NCBI GenBank assembly: GCA_017656145.1
Contig: JACDOI010000022.1
Span: 1-39,922, forward strand
Origin: Bacillota bacterium
GTDB taxonomy: Bacteria > Bacillota > Limnochordia > Limnochordales > ZCTH02-B6
Length of the DNA stretch: 39,922 nt
Reading direction: 5' to 3'
The notes under the pieces were generated by a model. It saw only the letters and a program-made list of their open reading frames with translations. It made no database searches and was not told the origin of the DNA. Both the position numbers and the translations under genes were made by a program. Position 1 is the stretch's first letter. Every line of letters starts with the position of its first letter. Shown in pieces: positions 9,468-35,334 of the stretch.

Positions 9468-9494
9468 AAAGGAAGCATTCATTGGTGGGCGAAT
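9468..9494 (+). promoter_or_regulatory. Sigma-H-like promoter of spoVS
   Basis: AAAGGAAGC (9468-9476), an 11-base spacer and GGCGAAT (9488-9494) match the Bacillus sigma-H pattern RnAGGAwww-N11-12-RnnGAAT, with the last two -35 positions off. In B. subtilis spoVS is sigma-H dependent. The leader to the spoVS ATG would be about 70 bases. Confidence 0.6.
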
Positions 9495-9570
9495 ATATTG
9501 GACAACAACCGGTGACGCGTCGCGATGAGCCATACAGCGGACACAACCGCTTGAGGAGGAGACGCCGACC

Positions 9571-9831
9571 ATGGAGGTACTCAAAGTTTCGGCCGCATCG
9601 AAGCCCAAGTCCGTTGCCGGCGCGCTAGCCGCGGTGTTGCGAGAGAAGGGGATGGTAGAAATTCAAGCGGTCGGCGCGGGCGCGGTCAACCAAGCCGTCA
9701 AATCCATCGCGATCGCTCGGGGTTTTGTCGCCCCCAACGGGATCGACTTAGTCTGCGTGCCCGCGTTCAGCGAAATCGAGATCGATGGCGAGGAGCGCAC
9801 AGCCATCCGGTTCATCGTCGGACCGCGCTGA
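9571..9831 (+). CDS. spoVS: Stage V sporulation protein S
   Basis: Small Alba-like protein required for proper spore coat assembly and septation control in Bacillus. The 86-residue sequence MEVLKVSAASKPKSVAGALA, then VEIQAVGAGAVNQAVKSIAIARGFV and a PAFSEIEIDGEERTAIRF tail, is essentially diagnostic, as the family is highly conserved. The ATG follows GAGGAGGAG with about 9 bases spacing. A sigma-H-like promoter lies upstream and a sigma-H-like gene directly downstream, a suggestive pairing. Confidence 0.96.
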   Translation: MEVLKVSAASKPKSVAGALAAVLREKGMVEIQAVGAGAVNQAVKSIAIARGFVAPNGIDLVCVPAFSEIEIDGEERTAIRFIVGPR

Positions 9832-9931
9832 CTACCGGATGCGGGAGACCGCCGCCGGTCGCGTCATATTCTCCCTAGACAAGCCATAGATCTGAACTGA
9901 CGGCATGACGCTTGGACAGGGAGGTACAGCC

Positions 9932-10630
9932 ATGCATGACGATCCGAACCAGCGGCGGGACTTGGCCTTCCTGGCGCGCATCCGCGCGGGGGACGCGGCG
10001 GCCAAGGAGGAGCTGGTGGAAAAGTACATCCCGTTGGTCAAGCACATCGTCCGGCATCACTATGCGAGTTTCTTGGAATTCGAAGACTTAATGCAAGAGG
10101 GGCTCATCGGCTTGCTCGGGGCCATCGAGGAATACCGGCCCGACGCATTCGACGTGAAGTTTAGCTCCTTCGCCTACATCTGCATTCTCCGCAAGGTGTA
10201 CAACGCGATCAAGCAGACGAACAGCAACAAGCACCGGGCCCTCAACGACGCGATTTCCTTGTACAGCCCCACTGGCGGCGACGACGGGCGCCCGATCCTT
10301 GAGCGCTGCGACGACGCTACCCAACGGGACCCGTTGGAGTGCGTGGTCGACAAGCTGACATCCCAGTATCTCGCGCGCCTGTTGCGCAATCACCTGTCGC
10401 TGCTCGAATACACCGTCTTCACCCTTCTTTTGCAAGGGTACTCCGCAGCCGAGATCGAGCGCGCTATCGGGGTGAGCCCCAAAGTCGTCGACAACGCCCG
10501 GACCCGGGGCAAGATCAAGCTCCGGCGGCTCGTAGAACAGTACGGTTCGCTGTTGGATCCCCGGGTGCCCATCAGGGTCCGCCGGCGCCGGGACTTGTAC
10601 GCCCGGGTCAACGTCAGCTTGAGCGGTTAA
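9932..10630 (+). CDS. sigH: Sigma-70 family factor, sigma-H (Spo0H) type
   Basis: Alternative sigma factor of 232 residues. Region 2 is seen in KEELVEKYIPLVKHIVRHHY, FEDLMQEGLIGLLGAIEEYRP and FSSFAYICILRKVYNAIKQTNSNKHRALNDAISL. The last part parallels B. subtilis SigH (ITRQIITAIKTATRQKH, then LNSYVSL). Region 4 ends SAAEIERAIGVSPKVVDNARTRGKIKLRR. Sigma-H directs early sporulation and competence genes. ATG 9932 follows AGGGAGG; an in-frame ATG at 9905 has no ribosome site. The gene lies between spoVS and smc rather than next to rpmG-secE as in Bacillus, so a paralogue elsewhere cannot be excluded. Confidence 0.85.
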   Translation: MHDDPNQRRDLAFLARIRAGDAAAKEELVEKYIPLVKHIVRHHYASFLEFEDLMQEGLIGLLGAIEEYRPDAFDVKFSSFAYICILRKVYNAIKQTNSNKHRALNDAISLYSPTGGDDGRPILERCDDATQRDPLECVVDKLTSQYLARLLRNHLSLLEYTVFTLLLQGYSAAEIERAIGVSPKVVDNARTRGKIKLRRLVEQYGSLLDPRVPIRVRRRRDLYARVNVSLSG

Positions 10631-10655
10631 AATCGCCGCAGCCGTGTGATACAAT
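10627..10655 (+). promoter_or_regulatory. Sigma-A promoter with extended -10 for smc
   Basis: TTAAAA (10627-10632; 4 of 6) and TACAAT (10650-10655) with a 17-base spacer, preceded by TG one base upstream (10647-10648), form an extended -10 promoter. Its -35 hexamer overlaps the stop codon of the sigma-factor gene, so smc can be transcribed independently of it. Confidence 0.65.
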
Positions 10656-10687
10656 TCTTGGGTGGTCGCCAAGGAGGTGCCACCCGG

Positions 10688-13600
10688 TTGCGGTTGCTGG
10701 CCCTGCAGCTGCTGGGCTTCAAATCGTTTCCCGACAAGACCGAACTTCGGTTCGGCCCAGGCATCACGGCCGTCGTCGGGCCCAACGGCAGCGGCAAGAG
10801 CAACATCGTGGACGCGATCCGCTGGGTGCTGGGAGAGGCGAGCGGCCGGGCGCTGCGAACGCCGCGGGCTACCGATCTCATCTTCGCCGGCACGTCCAGC
10901 CGAAAGCCCTTGGGGATGGCCCAGGTCACCCTCATCCTGGACAATGCGGATCAGGCGCTGTCGCTGCCGTACGCTGAGGTCAGCCTCACCCGCCGCATTT
11001 ACCGTTCCGGGGAAAGCGAGTTTCTCATCAACGGCCAGCCGTGCCGCCTGCGGGACATCCAGGAGCTTTTGCTCGGTACCGGGCTTGGCCGCGGGGGCAT
11101 GGCGATAGTCGGTCAAGGGGAGATCGATGCGGTTCTCAGCGCCGATCCCCGGGAGCGCCGCCTGTTGCTGGAGGAGACCGCCGGCACGAGCCGCTACCGG
11201 GCCCAGAAGCGGGAGGCGGTGCAGAAACTGTCCCAAGCCCAAGCGGACCTGGACCGGGTACGGGACATGGTTGTTGAGCTCACCCAGCGCCACGAGGGGC
11301 TCCAAGCCCAAGCCCGGGCCGCGGCCCGGTACCGGGAACTGGTACAGGCGCTGCGGGAAGCCCGGGCCTGCCAAGCGGCCCGGGAGTGGCTTGCGGCCGC
11401 GGGCCGGCTAAAGACCCTTCAGGCCGAGGCCCAGCAGGCCCAGCAGGCGCTGCTTGAAGCCGAGGCCGCATGGGAGCGCACTGGAGAAACCGCCCGGGCC
11501 TTTCGGGAGCAGGCGGCCTCCGCCCAGGCGGAGTTGCAAAAAGCCGAGCGGGAGCGGCAAGAGGCCGAGGCCCGCCTGGCAGCCGTCGTTCACGAGCTGG
11601 ACGTTGCCCTCGTCAAGCGGCAGGCGGCCGAGCGCCAGATGGCAAGCCTCGACGGGGAGATGGAGCGGCGCCAGAAGGAACTGGCTGCGGCTCGCGACGA
11701 GCTGGCGCGCGTTCAAGAAGAGCTGTCCCTTGCCCGTCAGCGGGCGCAAGTTCTCCGGTCCGAGGCCGCTGCCACCCAGCGGGAGCTGGCTGTCTACGAC
11801 GCCCAGCACCGGGAAGTGATGGGCCGCCTGGAGGCTGCCAGATCCGAGGCGCTGGAGGTCCTCCAGCGGCTGGCCCACCAGCGCAACGAAACCCGGCGGC
11901 TCGAATCGGAGCTGGCGTCCCTGGCAGCCAAAAAGGCGCGCTTAGGCGACACCCTGGACGCGCTGGCCAAGGAGCAGGACGAATGGCGCAAGGCACTGGG
12001 ACAAGCCCTTGGGCAGCTACAGGAGCGCGAATCCCGCCTCAAGGATTTCCAGCGGCGGGAAGCGGAGGCCTCCAAGGCGCTGAAACAGGCGGAAACGCAT
12101 CTTGCGGAACTTGTGCGCAGCGCCGCGGGCATCCGCAGCCGCCTTGAGGAAGCTAGGGCCGCCCGGCGGGCCATCTTGCGGTTGGAGGACAATCTTTCCG
12201 GATACCAGCCCGCCGTGAAGGCGGTGCTTCAGGCCGATCCGCCCCTTGCCGGGATCCGGGGAACGGTGGCTCAACTCATGGAGGTGCCGACCCCGTTTGA
12301 GGCGGCCATCCAGGCGGCTTTAGGGGCCGCGTTGCAGTACGTCGTCGTAGACGATCAGGCCGCGGTCAAGGCGGCCATCGAGCATTTGCGGGCTCGGCGG
12401 GCAGGACGGGCCACCTTTCTTCCCCTTGACACGTTGCGGGCCCGGCGGTGGCCCGGGGATTTGCAATGGGCTCTCAGCGCGCCCGGCGTGGCAGGCCGGG
12501 CCGCGGACTTGGTGAACTGTGCCCAGGACGTTCAGGTCGTCGCCGAGCATCTGCTCGGGCGAATTCTCGTCGTTGAGACGCTGGAAAGGGCCATGGCCCT
12601 TTCCAGGGAGTTGCCGGCCGGCGTGCGCCTCGTCTCCAAGACGGGGGACCTGATCGTCCCCGGCGGGCCGGTCACCGGTGGTTCGACGCAAGCGGATCCA
12701 AAGGCGGGGCTTTTGGCCCGGCGGCGGGAACTGCGGGAGTGGGAAGAGCGGCAGCGGTCGGCGCAACGGGAGCTGGAACAGGCTCAACAGCAACTCGCTG
12801 CGGCCCAGGAGGACGTCGAGGCACTGAAGGGGGCGGTGGCCCGCTACCGCACCGCTGCCCAGCAGGAGACCTTAGCGCTGGAGCGGGCCCGGCACGCGGC
12901 GGCAGCGTTGGAAAAGGAAGGACAGCGTCTTGAGAAAGCGGCTGCCCTTCACCGGGCCGAGCAGGAGGAGGTGCGCCAGACCGAGGCTGCTACCCGGGAA
13001 CGGCTCGCACAGGCGCAGGCAGAACTCCGGGAGCTGGAAGCGCGCGAGGGGGATTTGCGCCAGGCGCTCCACCACCTCACCGAAAAGGGGCGGCGGGAAG
13101 AGGAGGGCCGGCGCCGGCGGGCTGATGCCTTGGCGGAGGCCCGGTCGCGGCTGGCAGCCCGGGAGGAAGCCGTCAAGTCGCTGGAGCGGGAAGCCAGCGC
13201 CTGCCGGCGGCGGCTCGATGAGCACAAGGCCGCGCTGGACCGAATGGATGAGGAGCGCCGGGCTCTGGCCGCGGATCTGGAGCGCCTCGTCAAAACCCAG
13301 GCCGAGCTCGAGGAGCGAATGCCCCGCGCGCGGGAGGAAGCGCGGCGGGCTCAGGAGCGGGAAGCTCAAGCGGCCGCGCGCGTTTCGCAGGTCCGCCAAG
13401 CCGCGGACGCGGCCGACGGCGAATGCGCCCGGGCGCGTCTTGAGGCCGAGCGCTGCCGGGAGCGGGTGTGGCGGGTCCAGGCCGATGAAGCCCGAGTCCG
13501 GGCCCAAGCGGACAACTTGGCCCAGCGATTGGCGGAACTCGGAAGCTCGTGCGAGGAAGCCGAGAAGCTGGCCCGCGCGCCACTGCGGTCCAGCGACGAC

Positions 13601-14230
13601 ATTCGGCGCCTCGAACAAGAGCTGGAAGCGTTAGGTGGGGTCCATCTGGGCGCCGAGGAGGAGCTGGAGGAAGTCGGCAGCCGGCTGGCGTTTCTGCGGG
13701 AGCAACAGGCCGACCTGGAGCGGGCAACAAGCTCCCTCACAGAAGCCATCGCCCGCTTGGACCGGGTATGCGAAGAGCGGTTCGCCCGCACGCTGGAGCA
13801 GGTGAGACGGTCCTTTCTCACCACGTTCCGGCGGCTGTTCGGCGACGGCGAGGCCCGGCTTGAACTGACCGGCGAGGGCGGCGTGGACGTCCACGTCAAG
13901 TTGCCGGGCAAGCGCAGCCAAAACCTTCTGGCCCTGTCGGGCGGCGAGCGGGCGCTTGTGGCCATCGCGCTTTTGTTTGCCATGCTGGACGTCCAACCGA
14001 GCCCGTTTTATGTCCTGGATGAGATCGACGCAGCCCTGGACGAGGCCAATTTGGTTCGGTTCCAAGCGCTGTTGCGGCAAGCGGCGGAAACCGCCCAGTT
14101 CATCGTCATCACCCACCGGGCCACCACCATGGAAGCGGCGGGGGTTCTTTACGGCGTTACCGCCGCCCAGCCGGGGGTGTCGACCTTGATTTCGCTGGAC
14201 CTGGCCCGGGCGCTGGCCACGACCGCTTGA
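10688..14230 (+). CDS. smc: Chromosome segregation ATPase SMC
   Basis: Forms the SMC-ScpAB complex that loads at origins and aligns chromosome arms. It has 1180 residues, close to B. subtilis Smc. The order is N-terminal head with Walker A GPNGSGKSN (about 31-39), coiled coil from about 150, a hinge around 500-650 (NLSGYQPAVKAVL ... GDLIVPGGPVTGGS), the return coiled coil, and the C-terminal head with signature LSGGERALVAIAL (about 1083) and Walker B YVLDEIDAALDEAN. The start is TTG 10688 after AAGGAGGTG with 8 bases; upstream in-frame residues lie within the promoter. The stop overlaps no gene, and ftsY begins 77 bases on. Confidence 0.96.
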   Translation: MRLLALQLLGFKSFPDKTELRFGPGITAVVGPNGSGKSNIVDAIRWVLGEASGRALRTPRATDLIFAGTSSRKPLGMAQVTLILDNADQALSLPYAEVSLTRRIYRSGESEFLINGQPCRLRDIQELLLGTGLGRGGMAIVGQGEIDAVLSADPRERRLLLEETAGTSRYRAQKREAVQKLSQAQADLDRVRDMVVELTQRHEGLQAQARAAARYRELVQALREARACQAAREWLAAAGRLKTLQAEAQQAQQALLEAEAAWERTGETARAFREQAASAQAELQKAERERQEAEARLAAVVHELDVALVKRQAAERQMASLDGEMERRQKELAAARDELARVQEELSLARQRAQVLRSEAAATQRELAVYDAQHREVMGRLEAARSEALEVLQRLAHQRNETRRLESELASLAAKKARLGDTLDALAKEQDEWRKALGQALGQLQERESRLKDFQRREAEASKALKQAETHLAELVRSAAGIRSRLEEARAARRAILRLEDNLSGYQPAVKAVLQADPPLAGIRGTVAQLMEVPTPFEAAIQAALGAALQYVVVDDQAAVKAAIEHLRARRAGRATFLPLDTLRARRWPGDLQWALSAPGVAGRAADLVNCAQDVQVVAEHLLGRILVVETLERAMALSRELPAGVRLVSKTGDLIVPGGPVTGGSTQADPKAGLLARRRELREWEERQRSAQRELEQAQQQLAAAQEDVEALKGAVARYRTAAQQETLALERARHAAAALEKEGQRLEKAAALHRAEQEEVRQTEAATRERLAQAQAELRELEAREGDLRQALHHLTEKGRREEEGRRRRADALAEARSRLAAREEAVKSLEREASACRRRLDEHKAALDRMDEERRALAADLERLVKTQAELEERMPRAREEARRAQEREAQAAARVSQVRQAADAADGECARARLEAERCRERVWRVQADEARVRAQADNLAQRLAELGSSCEEAEKLARAPLRSSDDIRRLEQELEALGGVHLGAEEELEEVGSRLAFLREQQADLERATSSLTEAIARLDRVCEERFARTLEQVRRSFLTTFRRLFGDGEARLELTGEGGVDVHVKLPGKRSQNLLALSGGERALVAIALLFAMLDVQPSPFYVLDEIDAALDEANLVRFQALLRQAAETAQFIVITHRATTMEAAGVLYGVTAAQPGVSTLISLDLARALATTA

Positions 14231-29931: not shown

Positions 29932-31326
29932 ATGGAGCTCACCCCGCGCCAAATCGTAGCCGAGCTCGACAAGTACATCGTCGGGCAAACCCGCGCAAAG
30001 CGGGCCGTCGCGATCGCCCTGCGCAACCGGTACCGGCGCCAGCAGCTGCCCGAAGGCTTGCGGGACGAGGTGAATCCCAAAAACATCCTTATGATCGGGC
30101 CTACTGGCGTCGGAAAGACAGAGATCGCCCGGAGGCTCGCGCGGCTGGCCCGCGCGCCCTTCGTCAAGGTGGAGGCGACGAAGTTCACCGAGGTCGGCTA
30201 CGTCGGCCGGGACGTGGAATCCATGATCCGGGACCTGGCGGAGACGGCGGTTCGCATGGTCAAGGAAGAACGGATGGAAAGCGTCAAAGACCGGGCCGAG
30301 GAGCTCGCCAACGAGCGCCTGTTGGATTACTTGGCCCCGCTGCCCAAGCGGGAGCGGCCCGTCAACCCGTTCGCCGCCCTCTTTGGAGCGCCGGGTCATC
30401 CCCGGGAGACGGACGATGACTGGTCCCGCCAGATGGCGGAAGCCCGGGCGGCCCGGCAGGAGATCCAACACAAGCTGGCGGCGGGAGAACTGGAGGACGA
30501 ATGGGTCGAGATCGAGGTAGAGGACACCCGCCCGCCGATGATGGAAATTTTCTCTGCTCACGGCATGGAACAGATGGGCGTCAATTTGCAGGACTTGTTC
30601 GGGAGCTGGCTGCCAAAGCGCCACAAGAAGCGGAAGTGCCGGGTTTCCGAGGCCCGCAAGATCCTGGCGCAAGAAGAGGCCCAGAAGCTGATCGATATAG
30701 ACGAAGCAACGGCTGAGGGGGTGCGCCGGGCCGAACAGAGCGGCATCGTCTTCATCGATGAGATCGACAAGATTGCGGCCACCGGCGGAAAGGGATCGGG
30801 TCCCGACGTGTCCCGGGAAGGCGTCCAGCGGGATATTTTGCCCATCATCGAAGGCTCCACCGTGATGACCAAATACGGCCCTGTCAAGACCGATCATATC
30901 CTGTTCATCGCCGCGGGCGCGTTCCACATGGCGAAGCCGTCCGATCTGATTCCAGAGCTTCAGGGACGGCTGCCCATTCGGGTTGAGCTGGAACCCTTGG
31001 GGCAGGCCGATTTCCGCCGCATTCTTATCGAGCCGGAGAACGCTTTGCTGAAACAGTACGCCGCCCTTTTGGCCACCGAAGGCGTCAACATCCGGTTTGA
31101 CGACAGCGCCGTAGAAGCGCTGGCCCGCATCGCGGAGGAGGTCAATTCCCAGACGGAAAACATCGGCGCCCGCCGGCTGCACACGATTCTCGAGCACCTC
31201 TTGGAGGAGATCTCCTTTGACGCGCCGGAGATGAGCGGCCGGGAAATCGTCATCGACGGCTCTTACGTGGAAAGCCGCTTGAGCGGCATCGCCAATGATC
31301 GAAACCTCAGCCGCTACATCCTCTAG
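29932..31326 (+). CDS. hslU: ATP-dependent protease ATPase subunit HslU (ClpY)
   Basis: AAA+ unfoldase that feeds substrates to Hsl[31 protein letters not shown] opens the protein; Walker A is [15 protein letters not shown] (about 57), then [19 protein letters not shown], the intermediate domain (about 110-235), Walker [12 protein letters not shown] (about 273) and sensor motifs [12 protein letters not shown]. The C-terminal LSRYIL tail inserts into HslV. It is 464 residues long, normal for the family. In Bacillus codY follows; here the flagellar operon comes next. Confidence 0.96.
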
Positions 31327-31338
31327 CCCCGCGGAACG

Positions 31339-31432
31339 TCCAGGCGGGCCTTGGACCGGGCGAACTTCTTGGGCCTCCCGGGGTCGGGCGATCCGGTCCG
31401 GCCCGGGTTCCGGCGGCGAGCCCGGTTCCGGG
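31339..31432. other. GC-rich palindromic gap between hslU and flgB
   Basis: After the hslU stop, GTCCAGGC and GCCTTGGAC can form a hairpin with one bulged T (31339-31357), and CCCGGttCCGGG (31421-31432) forms another; GCCCGG-TTCCGG occurs twice (31401-31413, 31420-31432). No T run follows either hairpin, so a classical intrinsic terminator is not evident, but this is the likely boundary between the hsl and flagellar units. I see no gene here. Confidence 0.35.
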
Positions 31433-31460
31433 AAAGGCTGAACAAAAAGGAATTCATAGT

Positions 31461-31545
31461 TTCCCGCCGAATTTCCCCAGAACGACGGCCGAAAAACGGA
31501 GGATTTGTCCAGGTTTATCAAGGTTTGCCAGGTTCCCGCCGATAC
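31461..31545 (+). promoter_or_regulatory. Sigma-D-like promoter region of the flagellar operon, with tandem repeats
   Basis: TCAA (31518-31521), 16 bases, GCCGATAC (31538-31545) resembles the sigma-D consensus TAAA-N15-16-GCCGATAT. The decamer TTCCCGCCGA occurs at 31461-31470 and 31533-31542, the first giving a weaker GCCGAATT with an A-rich upstream stretch. Two 10-base tandem units with consensus AGGTTTnnCA (31511-31520, 31521-31530), plus a third AGGTT at 31530, lie on one helix face and overlap the -35. Confidence 0.5.
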
Positions 31546-31580
31546 ATGTGATGAGATCCGGTAGGAAGGGGGGGCGAGCT

Positions 31581-31988
31581 GTGGCGGGCGTGCGAGGATT
31601 CGCGGAGCTCGACGGCGTGCTCAAGGCGGCTATGGACGCGGCGGCTCTTCGCCAGCAAGTGGCCGCGCACAACATCGCCAACGTCAACACTCCTCGGTTT
31701 CGACGCAGCTACGTCCGGTTCGAGGACAAGCTCGCGCAGTCGATGGGACGGCGCCTCAGCGGAGTGATCACTCATCCCCGTCACATCCCCTTCGGGTCTT
31801 GGCAGCTGCCGCAGCCGGAAGTCGCCGTAGATCGGTCCACGATCATGCGCAACGACGGCAACAACGTCGATATCGAGCGGGAGATGGCGTTGCTGTCGGC
31901 CGCTGAGGTGCAGTACGCCGCCCTGACGCAAGTGGCGGCCGCGCGGTACCGGATGTTGCGGTCGGCCATGTCGCAGGGAGGCAGATGA
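31581..31988 (+). CDS. flgB: Flagellar basal-body rod protein FlgB
   Basis: Proximal rod component of the flagellar basal body. AAALRQQVAAHNIANVNTPRFRRSYVRFED is the FlgB/FlgC rod signature; DGNNVDIEREMALLSAAEVQYAALTQ is typical of FlgB. It is 135 residues long. GTG 31581 follows AAGGGGGGG; an in-frame ATG at 31548 lies inside the promoter region. It is the first gene of the flagellar run. Confidence 0.95.
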   Translation: MAGVRGFAELDGVLKAAMDAAALRQQVAAHNIANVNTPRFRRSYVRFEDKLAQSMGRRLSGVITHPRHIPFGSWQLPQPEVAVDRSTIMRNDGNNVDIEREMALLSAAEVQYAALTQVAAARYRMLRSAMSQGGR

Positions 31989-31992
31989 GACT

Positions 31993-32409
31993 ATGCTGCA
32001 CGCGTTTTCCATCAGCGCTTCCGGCATGACGGCTGAACGGGTGCGGATGGACACCATTGCCAACAACTTGGCCAATGCCAACACAACTCGTACCCCCGAA
32101 GGCGGCCCGTACCGGCGTCAGGTTCCGGTGTTCGCAGCCCGGGAATGGCCGTCATGGCAGCGCATGGGATTTGCGGGGGCGGGCGTGCGGGTCGTAGCGA
32201 TCCGCGAGGATCCCGGGCCTTTCCGGCTCGTGTACGATCCGCACCACCCGGACGCGGGCCCTGACGGCTACGTGCGCATGCCCAACGTGGACGTGGTGCG
32301 GGAAATGGTGGACTTGATCTCGGCCACCAGGGCGTACGAGGCCAACGTGAGCGCGTTCAACGCAGCCAAGACCATGGCCATGCGAGCATTGGACATCGGC
32401 AGGGCCTGA
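31993..32409 (+). CDS. flgC: Flagellar basal-body rod protein FlgC
   Basis: Second proximal rod protein. FSISASGMTAERVRMDTIANNLANANTTRTPEGGPYRRQV is the rod-protein N-terminal signature; VRMPNVDVVREMVDLISATRAYEANVSAFNAAKTMAMRALDIGR is the conserved C-terminus. It is 138 residues long and lies 4 bases after flgB, with GGGAGG 11 bases before the ATG. Confidence 0.96.
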   Translation: MLHAFSISASGMTAERVRMDTIANNLANANTTRTPEGGPYRRQVPVFAAREWPSWQRMGFAGAGVRVVAIREDPGPFRLVYDPHHPDAGPDGYVRMPNVDVVREMVDLISATRAYEANVSAFNAAKTMAMRALDIGRA

Positions 32410-32473: not shown

Positions 32474-32761
32474 GTGCGCATCGAAGGGACGGTAGTGCGC
32501 CCGCGCCTTTTGCCCGAGCGGGACGTACAGCGGGCCGGCGGTCCTTCGTTTGCCGAACTGTTGCAGGCGGGATTTGAGCGGGTTAACGCCATGCAGGCGG
32601 AGGCCGATCAGGCCGCATGGGCGTTGGCGACCGGCCAAGTTCAAGACTTGCATCACGTCATGATCGCCATCGAACGGGCTTCGCTCGCGCTGGAAATGAC
32701 GGTTGCGATCCGTAACCGGTTGATCGACGCGTACCACGAGATCATGCGGATGCAGGTCTGA
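32474..32761 (+). CDS. fliE: Flagellar hook-basal body protein FliE
   Basis: Junction protein between the MS ring and rod. FAELLQAGFERVNAMQAEADQAAWALATGQVQDLHHVMIAIERASLALEMTVAIRNRLIDAYHEIMRMQV carries the family C-terminus almost unchanged. It is 95 residues long. GTG start after AGGGGTG. The usual order flgC-fliE-fliF is kept. Confidence 0.95.
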   Translation: MRIEGTVVRPRLLPERDVQRAGGPSFAELLQAGFERVNAMQAEADQAAWALATGQVQDLHHVMIAIERASLALEMTVAIRNRLIDAYHEIMRMQV

Positions 32762-32775
32762 CCCGGGACGGTTCG

Positions 32776-34302
32776 GTGACGATGACAGAGCTGTGGACCC
32801 GCTTGCGCCAGCAAGTAGCCGCGATTTTGGGGAGTATGAGCCGCACCCAACGGATACTGGCCGGTGCGGTTTCCTCGGCCGTACTGGTCGGCCTGCTCAT
32901 GATGGCTTGGCGCGCGTCGAATCCGCCATATGCCACGCTGTTTTCCCGTCTTGGTGTCGCCGACGCTGGGGAGATCGTCAGTGCCCTGCGGGATATGGGC
33001 GTTCCGTACCGCTTGGCCGACGGCGGGACGACGGTGCTCGTGCCCGAGGACCAGGTGTATGATGCGCGCCTCAGCCTTGCGGGCCAGGGGTTGCCACGCG
33101 GAGGTGTCGTCGGTTTCGAGATTTTTCTCGAATCGGCCTTGGGCGCCACCGACTTTGACCGCCAGGTTCGGTACAACATGGCCCTCCAAGGGGAACTGAC
33201 CCGCACCATCCGGGAGCTGGACGGCGTCATGGATGCCCGGGTGCATATCGTCCTGCCGGAACGCCGGGTGTTCCGCCAGGACCAGCGGCCGGCGACGGCG
33301 TCGGTGTTCGTGCAACTGGCGCCCGGCGCCGACTTGCGTCCCGACCAGGTGCGGGCAATCGCGCACCTGATTGCCCGCAGCGTCGAGGGGCTTCAGCCGG
33401 AAAACGTAACCATCGTGGACAACCGCGGGCGGGTTCTGTCGGATGCGGTTCGGCTGGCCGACGGCGCCGTGCTGGACGGTGCCGGCGTAGCGGCCCGTTT
33501 TGACGTCCAGCGGGCGTACGAGCAAGAGCTGGCGCTGCGGGTCCAGTCCATGCTGGAGGCCGTCTACGGTCCGGGCCGGGCCATCGTCCGGGTCAGTGCG
33601 CCCATGAACTTCGACATGCAGGAAGAGCGGGAAGACCGCTACGAACCCATCACCCGGTCCGGGGGTCTGGTGCGCAGCAGCCAGGTTTTGGAGGAAGAAG
33701 GCCTCGGCTCGGGACCGGCCGTGGGCGCCGCAGGAGTCGACGCCAACGTTCCCGGGTACGTCGCGGACGCCCCGGGCACGCAAAGCTTTTCCCGGCGCGA
33801 GGAAATTCTCAACTTCGAGCTCAACCGGATCGAGCGGGTGCGGGTCCAGGCCCCCGGCCGGGTGGAGCGGCTGTCGGTGGCAGTATGGCTTGACGCTGAG
33901 CTTGAACCCGGCGAGGCCCGCCGGGTGGAAGAACTGATCGCGGCCGCGGTCGGGGTAGACCCAGCCAGGGGCGACTCGGTGATCGTGGACGCCATGCCGT
34001 TTGTCGCCGCCGCCAGCGTGGCTGCCCCGGCTGTGGAAGCGGCGCCGGAGCCGGGCCTTGAGCCCTGGATTCTGGCCTTTGCTGCGGCTTTGGCGCTGCT
34101 TATTGCGTGGTGGCTCCTAGCCCGGCGGCGCCAGGCGGGGGCGGTCGTCGATATGACGGTCGCCGAAGAGGTCGCCCCGGCTGCGGAAGAAGGGGCCGAA
34201 GGCAACGAGCGCCGTCGACTGCGGGAGCGGGTGGCCGGCCTCGTCCGGCAAAACCCGCGAGAGGTGGCTCAATTGGTCAAGATCTGGCTGGCGGAGGACT
34301 GA
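32776..34302 (+). CDS. fliF: Flagellar MS-ring protein FliF
   Basis: Forms the inner-membrane MS ring on which the rotor and export gate assemble. Two transmembrane helices are visible: about residues 28-46 (AGAVSSAVLVGLLMMAW) and about 430-450 (PWILAFAAALALLIAWWLLA). Ring-building motifs include YATLFSRLGVADAGEIVSALRDMGVPYRL, GFEIFLESALGATDFDRQVRYNMALQGELTRTI and LPERRVFRQDQRPATASVFV. The cytoplasmic tail RRRLRERVAGLVRQNPREVAQLVKIWLAED is the FliG-binding segment. It has 508 residues; GTG 32776 or ATG 32782 may be the start. Confidence 0.95.
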   Translation: MTMTELWTRLRQQVAAILGSMSRTQRILAGAVSSAVLVGLLMMAWRASNPPYATLFSRLGVADAGEIVSALRDMGVPYRLADGGTTVLVPEDQVYDARLSLAGQGLPRGGVVGFEIFLESALGATDFDRQVRYNMALQGELTRTIRELDGVMDARVHIVLPERRVFRQDQRPATASVFVQLAPGADLRPDQVRAIAHLIARSVEGLQPENVTIVDNRGRVLSDAVRLADGAVLDGAGVAARFDVQRAYEQELALRVQSMLEAVYGPGRAIVRVSAPMNFDMQEEREDRYEPITRSGGLVRSSQVLEEEGLGSGPAVGAAGVDANVPGYVADAPGTQSFSRREEILNFELNRIERVRVQAPGRVERLSVAVWLDAELEPGEARRVEELIAAAVGVDPARGDSVIVDAMPFVAAASVAAPAVEAAPEPGLEPWILAFAAALALLIAWWLLARRRQAGAVVDMTVAEEVAPAAEEGAEGNERRRLRERVAGLVRQNPREVAQLVKIWLAED

Positions 34303-34308
34303 CGCCGG

Positions 34309-35334
34309 ATGGCAGAGTCGGTGCGGCAGCGTAGCCAAAAGCTAACCGGTCGCCAGAAGGCGGCGGTGTTGCTCATCGCCCTGGGCCCCGAAAGCGCGGC
34401 CCAGGTGTTCAAACACCTGAGGGAAGACGAAATCGAGCGGATCACGTGGGAAATCGCCAACATGCGCCACGTGGATCCGGAGGTCACGCTCAAGGTGCTT
34501 GAGGAGTTCGACCACCTGGCGCTAGCGCGAGAACATCTGGCCCAGGGAGGGCTTGAGTACGCCCGGGACGTTTTGGAGAAGGCGGTCGGACCGCAGCGGG
34601 CCGCGCAGCTCATCGAGCGGCTGGCCGCATCGCTTCAGGTTCGGCCGTTTGATTTCGCCCGCAAGACGGACCCGGCGCAGCTTTTGAGCTTCATCCAAAA
34701 CGAACATCCTCAGACCATCAGTCTTATCATGGCCCATTTGCATCCGGACCAAGCAGGCACTATTTTGTCCGCCCTGCCGCCGGAACGGCAAGTAGAGGTG
34801 GCCAAACGGCTCGCGACGCTGGACCGGACGTCCCCTGAAGTGCTGGAGGAGGTCGAGGCCACGTTGGAGAAGCGGCTGGCCTCTTTCGTGCGCCAGGAAT
34901 TCACCGCCGCCGGCGGCATCGAGGTCGCGGTAGAGGTATTGAACCGCGTTGATCGCCAGACGGAGCGAACGATTATGGAGGCGCTCGAAGAAGACGATCC
35001 GGAACTGGCCGAAGAGATCAAGCGGCGGATGTTTGTGTTCGAAGATATCGTCACCCTCGACAACCGCTCGGTGCAGAAAGTCATCTCGGAAGTTGAAACT
35101 TCGGTCTGGGCTCTCGCCCTCAAGACGGCCAGCGAGGACGTGGCCAACGTCATCTTCCACAACCTGTCCAAGCGGGCTGCGGAGATTCTCCGGGAAGAGA
35201 TCGAGTACTTGGGCCCGGTCCGGCTGCGGGATGTGGAGGAGGCCCAGCAGCGCATCGTCGCCACCATCCGGCGGCTCGAGGAAGCGGGGGAAATCATCAT
35301 CGCCCGGGGCGGAGGGGACGAGATCGTTGTCTAA
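34309..35334 (+). CDS. fliG: Flagellar motor switch protein FliG
   Basis: Rotor component that contacts MotA and FliF. The N-domain LTGRQKAAVLLIALGPESAAQVFKHLREDEIERI, the middle domain NEHPQTISLIMAHLHPDQAGTILSALPPERQVEVAKRL, and the C-domain with the charged torque helix DDPELAEEIKRRMFVFEDIVTLDNRSVQKVISEV are all present. It is 341 residues long. It lies 6 bases after fliF, and its stop overlaps the fliH TTG start. Confidence 0.97.
   Translation: MAESVRQRSQKLTGRQKAAVLLIALGPESAAQVFKHLREDEIERITWEIANMRHVDPEVTLKVLEEFDHLALAREHLAQGGLEYARDVLEKAVGPQRAAQLIERLAASLQVRPFDFARKTDPAQLLSFIQNEHPQTISLIMAHLHPDQAGTILSALPPERQVEVAKRLATLDRTSPEVLEEVEATLEKRLASFVRQEFTAAGGIEVAVEVLNRVDRQTERTIMEALEEDDPELAEEIKRRMFVFEDIVTLDNRSVQKVISEVETSVWALALKTASEDVANVIFHNLSKRAAEILREEIEYLGPVRLRDVEEAQQRIVATIRRLEEAGEIIIARGGGDEIVV

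Follow-up and report, generated by a model that had tools for sequence, protein, structure and literature searches.

The window (the whole stretch of 39,922 nt that was analysed) carries a flagellar operon; its genes, hslU, the elements between them and the SigH-type site at 9470–9494 described below lie on the forward (+) strand. The operon begins with flgB (31581–31988; TIGR01396, 99.7 bits against a cut-off of 59) and continues with flgC (31993–32409; TIGR01395, 182.6 bits), fliE (ORF 32474–32761, start uncertain; TIGR00205, 94.9 bits), fliF (32776–34302; TIGR00206, 285.8 bits) and fliG (34309–35334; TIGR00207, 436.7 bits). The likely start of flgB is the GTG at 31581, which follows a ribosome binding site, AGGAAGGGGGGG (31563–31574), read from the sequence; the mechanical ORF start at 31548 is not favoured. 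Upstream, on the same strand, lies hslU (29932–31326; TIGR00390, 667 bits), and the 254 nt between the two genes hold the stretch 31461–31545. We scanned 31200–31700 and found no terminator-like site between hslU and flgB and no SigA-type promoter, and both were rejected as candidates.

Two promoter-like elements lie in this intergenic region. The consensus for SigD (sigma-28) consists of a TAAAGTTT-like –35 element, an 11-nt spacer and a –10 element, GCCGATAA/T. The downstream element, P_D, reads CAAGGTTT-N11-GCCGATAC (31519–31545); its –35 element, CAAGGTTT (31519–31526), matches TAAAGTTT at 6 of 8 positions and its –10 element, GCCGATAC (31538–31545), matches GCCGATAT at 7 of 8, for 13 of 16 consensus letters in all. 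None of 100 shuffles reached this score. SigD is encoded in the genome, on another contig of the draft (G000:C5:83656-84333; 291 bits, cut-off 189.6), and lies above the cut-off in 13 of 14 genomes of the order, this one among them. The flagellin promoter match, TAAAGTTC-N12-GACGAAAT, is an imperfect SigD site.

Relatives share P_D unevenly. Two same-family genomes (G012 and G013) have CAAGATTT at –35 and CGATAT at –10, in register with P_D. In two others (G010 and G011), no counterpart was found, and shuffles matched their best scores in 99 and 73 of 100 runs, respectively. Two genomes of family f3 (G004 and G005) carry CAAG-N15-GCCGATAT before flgB. Across the class, AAR-N17-CGATA is present in 6 of 70 flgB regions, compared to at most one at other spacings, and a sample drawn from the phylum at large showed no SigD spacing peak (2/100 at N17, up to 10 elsewhere). 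These data point to a good SigD-type promoter that only part of the relatives possess.

The upstream element, P_H, has the form AGGAATT-N14-GAAT (31448–31472). Its –35 element, AGGAATT (31448–31454), fits the pattern AGGAWNT-N14-GAAT, and the AGGA is invariant in five same-family genomes. The –10 core, GAAT (31469–31472), lies within GCCGAATT, and the family's spoIIAA and spo0A sites have the N14 spacer as well. The TGT that is common before the –10 element elsewhere is missing from P_H, which has CGCCGAAT. In the 2.57-Mb genome, AGGAWNT-N14-GAAT occurs 10 times, one of these being P_H, versus once for the reversed control pattern. The distance from AGGN to GAA is 17, within the 17–18 of SigH promoters from C. 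difficile. In the portion of the C. difficile set used here (28 typed rows of 40; PMC7438776), this distance is 17 in 11 rows and 18 in 14, while the remaining 3 of the 28 gave 14, our script having taken the first GAA.

We scored the window with three SigH matrices. One was built on 10 SigH promoters of C. difficile, one on 59 sites from class flgB regions outside family f1, to which the window belongs, and one on 62 sites of the phylum sample. With each matrix, position 31448 ranked first among 79,784 window positions, at 24–27 bits, and the runner-up reached 12–17. A second SigH-type site (9470–9494) ranked second with the C. difficile and phylum matrices and third with the class matrix. 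It lies ∼100 nt before spoVS (9571–9831; PF04232, 135 bits) and serves as an internal positive control. That part of the window (9470–14230) comprises the SigH-type site, spoVS, a SigH-like paralog (9905–10630) and an SMC protein (10646–14230), so that smc comes directly after one sporulation gene and one for a sigma factor.

The motif was calibrated on sporulation genes of the five family genomes. AGGA-N17-GAA stands before spoIIAA in 5/5; as none of the five spoIIAA matches passes the curated cut-off, these genes are named by best match only. AGGA or AGGG at the N17 spacing precedes 8 of 9 spo0A homologues, and in the ninth, from this genome, an AGGG stands one base farther away. A search for SpoVG, usually a SigH target, gave 0/5. 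Two proteins of this genome exceed the Spo0A cut-off (G000:C48:6779-7528, locus L115, and G000:C33:17671-18450, locus L109, the latter being that ninth homologue). On these grounds we classify the upstream site as a predicted SigH (Spo0H)-type promoter, not a SigD-like one.

We then asked how widely AGGA-N17-GAA recurs before flgB. Within the family, it lies upstream of flgB in 5/5 genomes, at –108 to –133, with per-region shuffle rates of 0.7–4.2%; while the sequence around has diverged, this site persists, as does the SigD site in part. Controls for the counts over larger samples were shuffled sequences, alternative spacings, reverse-strand counts and the remainder of 33 loci. The class count covers every one of the 70 genomes that have a FlgB match (2 of 72 had none); four of the regions fall short of 400 nt. 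The site is present within 400 nt upstream of flgB in 52 of the 70. Against this, 100 shuffling runs gave 3.3 (at most 8), other spacings 1–11, the reverse strand 0/70 and the rest of the 33 loci, mostly coding, 0.03 per 400 nt. The exact form is missing in 18 of the 70, three of which have just 3, 60 and 240 nt upstream.

A similar excess was seen in the phylum sample, where 55 of 100 genomes, from 34 of 55 families, have the site. Here shuffles gave 5.7 (maximum 13), the reverse strand 0/100, N18 19 and other spacings 3–10; some of the 45 genomes without the exact form have N18. The sample comprises 100 of the 168 genomes in which FlgB was matched and is not random, as the best-scoring FlgB places outside the class were taken (G145, at a contig edge, was skipped). 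Two of its regions were short, at 64 and 291 nt. Because genomes are related, counts do not represent independent events, and family numbers are given for this reason. A first survey of 63 loci had yielded 20 matches at N17, 6 at N18 and 0–3 at other spacings. Its carriers include Dethiobacter (L013 and L016) and Paenibacillus (L024, and L025 and L028, which are P. mendelii C/2 and P. harenae CC479). P. xylaniclasticus (L019) lacks the site, which was also found in 0/10 loci labelled with the names of non-Bacillota taxa (L017, L021, L026, L029, L034, L038, L039, L041, L042 and L044). Collectively, these comparisons identify P_H as the conserved core, with P_D present in only some relatives.

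Other families of the class add a further element. Of 69 class loci that were scanned, 18 have a c-di-GMP-I type riboswitch before flgB (L069–L073, L128–L130, L132–L136, L142, L151, L157, L158 and L169). It is present in 11/11 members of family f8 and 2/2 of f4, and in these families the SigH-type site lies just upstream of it, in 10/11 (the eleventh region is short) and 2/2, respectively. Such an arrangement would place sigma-factor and second-messenger control in series. A riboswitch was also considered for the flgB leader of the window's family, f1, and rejected, as none was found there, though c-di-GMP-I occurs in other class families.

Which sigma factor would read P_H? SigH is encoded in this genome (G000:C8:22013-22606; 372.7 bits, cut-off 294.8) and exceeds the curated cut-off in 13 of the 14 order genomes, including this one. 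A second SigH-like sigma factor (G000:C5:15767-16348; locus L105) scores 248 bits to TIGR02859; such a protein scores 243–248 bits in 10 of the 14 order genomes, and lower in f2. Since it shares its last helix (KSIDNALxRxKxK) with SigH, P_H could be read by either SigH-class factor. P_H might then be real and SigH-class, but read mainly by the second factor, perhaps for motility or stress. We regard this as unlikely, given that the same site form stands before spoIIAA, spo0A and spoVS and occurs phylum-wide (the survey of the paralog covered the order). The SigH-like protein at 9905–10630 in the window is a third one, with only 104 bits to TIGR02859.

Another reading concerns the –10 region. 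The Spo0A box is TGNCGAA, and the conserved GTCGAA of the upstream element could be such a box rather than a SigH –10 element, or the two could overlap. Spo0A homologues are present in 5/5 family genomes, and TGTCGAA leads the 7-mers at the class sites (12/64). In the phylum sample, however, TGTTGAA (11/64) and TGTAGAA (10/64) are commoner than TGTCGAA (7/64), the window itself has CGCCGAA, and a Spo0A box leaves the AGGA at its fixed 17-nt distance unexplained. These points make a Spo0A box improbable as an account of the upstream element.

The original prediction had proposed a repeated sigma-D promoter with phased AGGTTT sites for an activator or repressor. It was right that TTCCCGCCGA occurs twice, 72 nt apart (31461–31470 and 31533–31542), and the window has no third copy. 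Two copies were reached in 2 of 100 shuffles of the window, where 0.28 are expected on average. However, a repeat of some 10-mer arises within the 254-nt region in 102 of 1000 shuffles, so the TTCCCGCCGA repeat itself is near chance and, taken alone, constitutes weak evidence. Both copies had been placed in sigma-D-like –10 elements. This is borne out for the downstream copy, which lies in P_D and its 7/8 match, but not for the upstream one, which overlaps the –10 element of P_H at what had been the first GCCGA site. There, GCCGAATT (31466–31473) matches the sigma-D –10 element at only 6 of 8 positions, inspection by eye found no sigma-D –35 element at N11 before it (AAGGAATT, 3/8), and the site is absent from the sigma-D scan matches of the window.

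The AGGTTT repeats fared less well. AGGTT occurs at 31511, 31521 and 31530, so that the claimed 10-base tandem is correct in its first step, while the third AGGTT, supposedly one turn on, follows after 9 and is only approximately phased. A tandem matching at 8 of 10 positions with period 10 was reached in 67 of 500 shuffles. Copy 2 of the tandem (AGGTTTATCA/AGGTTTGCCA, 31511–31530) forms part of the –35 element of P_D, and copy 1, for which no function is supported, falls at a ∼14-nt stretch (31502–31515, bounds depending on the alignment) that is missing from four same-family relatives. A pair of AGGTTT at 10-nt distance is unique to the window among 70 class flgB regions. Conservation of the repeats upstream of flgB, on which the prediction had staked itself, is thus not seen in relatives. 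A genome-wide scan for AGGTTTNNCA gave 38 matches versus 55 for the reversed control pattern; as it is rarer than its control, the word is not motility-specific. AGGTTT forms no part of the flagellin promoter match. We therefore rejected an AGGTTT operator array (67/500 shuffles; no other 10-nt pair in 70 class regions) and a second SigD promoter at 31461, where the –35 element is missing and relatives keep AGGA-N17-GAA rather than GCCGA. Two sigma-D promoters with phased operators, though TTCCCGCCGA is common to both sites and the downstream one is sigma-D-like, are accordingly very improbable. What does stand is the prediction of a double promoter before the flagellar operon, with a SigH-type element upstream and a sigma-D-type element downstream.

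Transcription of the operon mainly by read-through from hslVU, with the intergenic elements of little weight, would fit the short same-strand gap and the scan for terminators, but is hardly credible given that AGGA-N17-GAA and partly the SigD site are preserved in otherwise diverged sequence and that the SigH-type element recurs even where a riboswitch separates it from flgB.

We favour, with a probability of roughly 0.8, the reading that a SigH-type promoter (P_H) and a SigD-type promoter (P_D), arranged in tandem and each partly covered by 31461–31545, head the flgBC-fliEFG operon and provide SigH entry and SigD feedback. P_H would be read by RNA polymerase carrying SigH or the SigH-like paralog, and its transcript would begin near 31480, with a leader of ∼100 nt. 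P_D would be read by SigD from a start near 31552, with a leader of ∼30 nt. SigH-RNA polymerase may open the operon as the cell leaves fast growth, on inputs that also start sporulation. SigD, once made by the flagellar programme, could act back on P_D and amplify expression.

In B. subtilis, the fla/che operon, of which flgB is the first gene, is served by promoters of the SigA class and weak ones of the SigD class. It is customary, with B. subtilis as the example, to describe motility and sporulation as antagonistic, each run by its own sigma factors. The arrangement in the window resembles fla/che in that flgB heads the operon and a SigD-type promoter precedes it, but differs in that the other promoter is SigH-type, with no SigA-type site in the scanned interval. 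The portion of PMC5540618 consulted counts fla-che among SigD-regulon genes expressed mainly from SigA promoters.

Comparison with C. difficile gives a similarly mixed picture. Its SigH promoters, which in the part of PMC7438776 used here (Table 3) include those of spoIIAA, spo0A, spoVS, ftsZ and minC, share with P_H an AGG(A) –35 element, a GAA(T) –10 element and the spacing, and their matrix is one of those that rank P_H first. However, no flagellar structural operon appears in that table. According to the sections consulted of PMC7438776 and PMC3865298, C. difficile flgB is SigA-driven, and the latter source also states that SigH lowers motility. The C. difficile flgB operon combines a SigA-type promoter with a c-di-GMP riboswitch; the riboswitch has its likeness in part of the class (the 18 loci above), whereas family f1 lacks it. 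No SigH promoter before flgB is reported in the portions consulted of PMC7438776, PMC2530871, PMC5540618 and PMC3865298. Nor did a full-text literature search, which left most subscription journals outside its reach, return such a report, so novelty is unproven.

The breadth of the motif inclines us, by a narrow measure, to a more general proposal. A SigH-type promoter may be the old and widespread entry to the flagellar basal-body operon in Bacillota, with SigH rather than SigA opening flagellar synthesis in numerous lineages. On this view, control of flgB by SigA, as in B. subtilis and C. difficile, would be a derived or special state, and c-di-GMP riboswitches and SigD feedback would be layers added downstream. 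If this is true, flagella belong to the SigH regulon across a large part of the phylum, and swimming is tied to the transition and sporulation programme.

Two further features were observed upstream of flgB in other families. In family f13 (among L144–L178), AGGA-N17-GAA occurs twice in 12 of 21 members, the additional site lying ∼80–95 nt upstream of the first. In family f3 (L065–L068), a near-palindrome, AAACTGACAGTTT (AAACCGACAGTTT in L065), is kept ∼170–220 nt before flgB and represents a possible operator.
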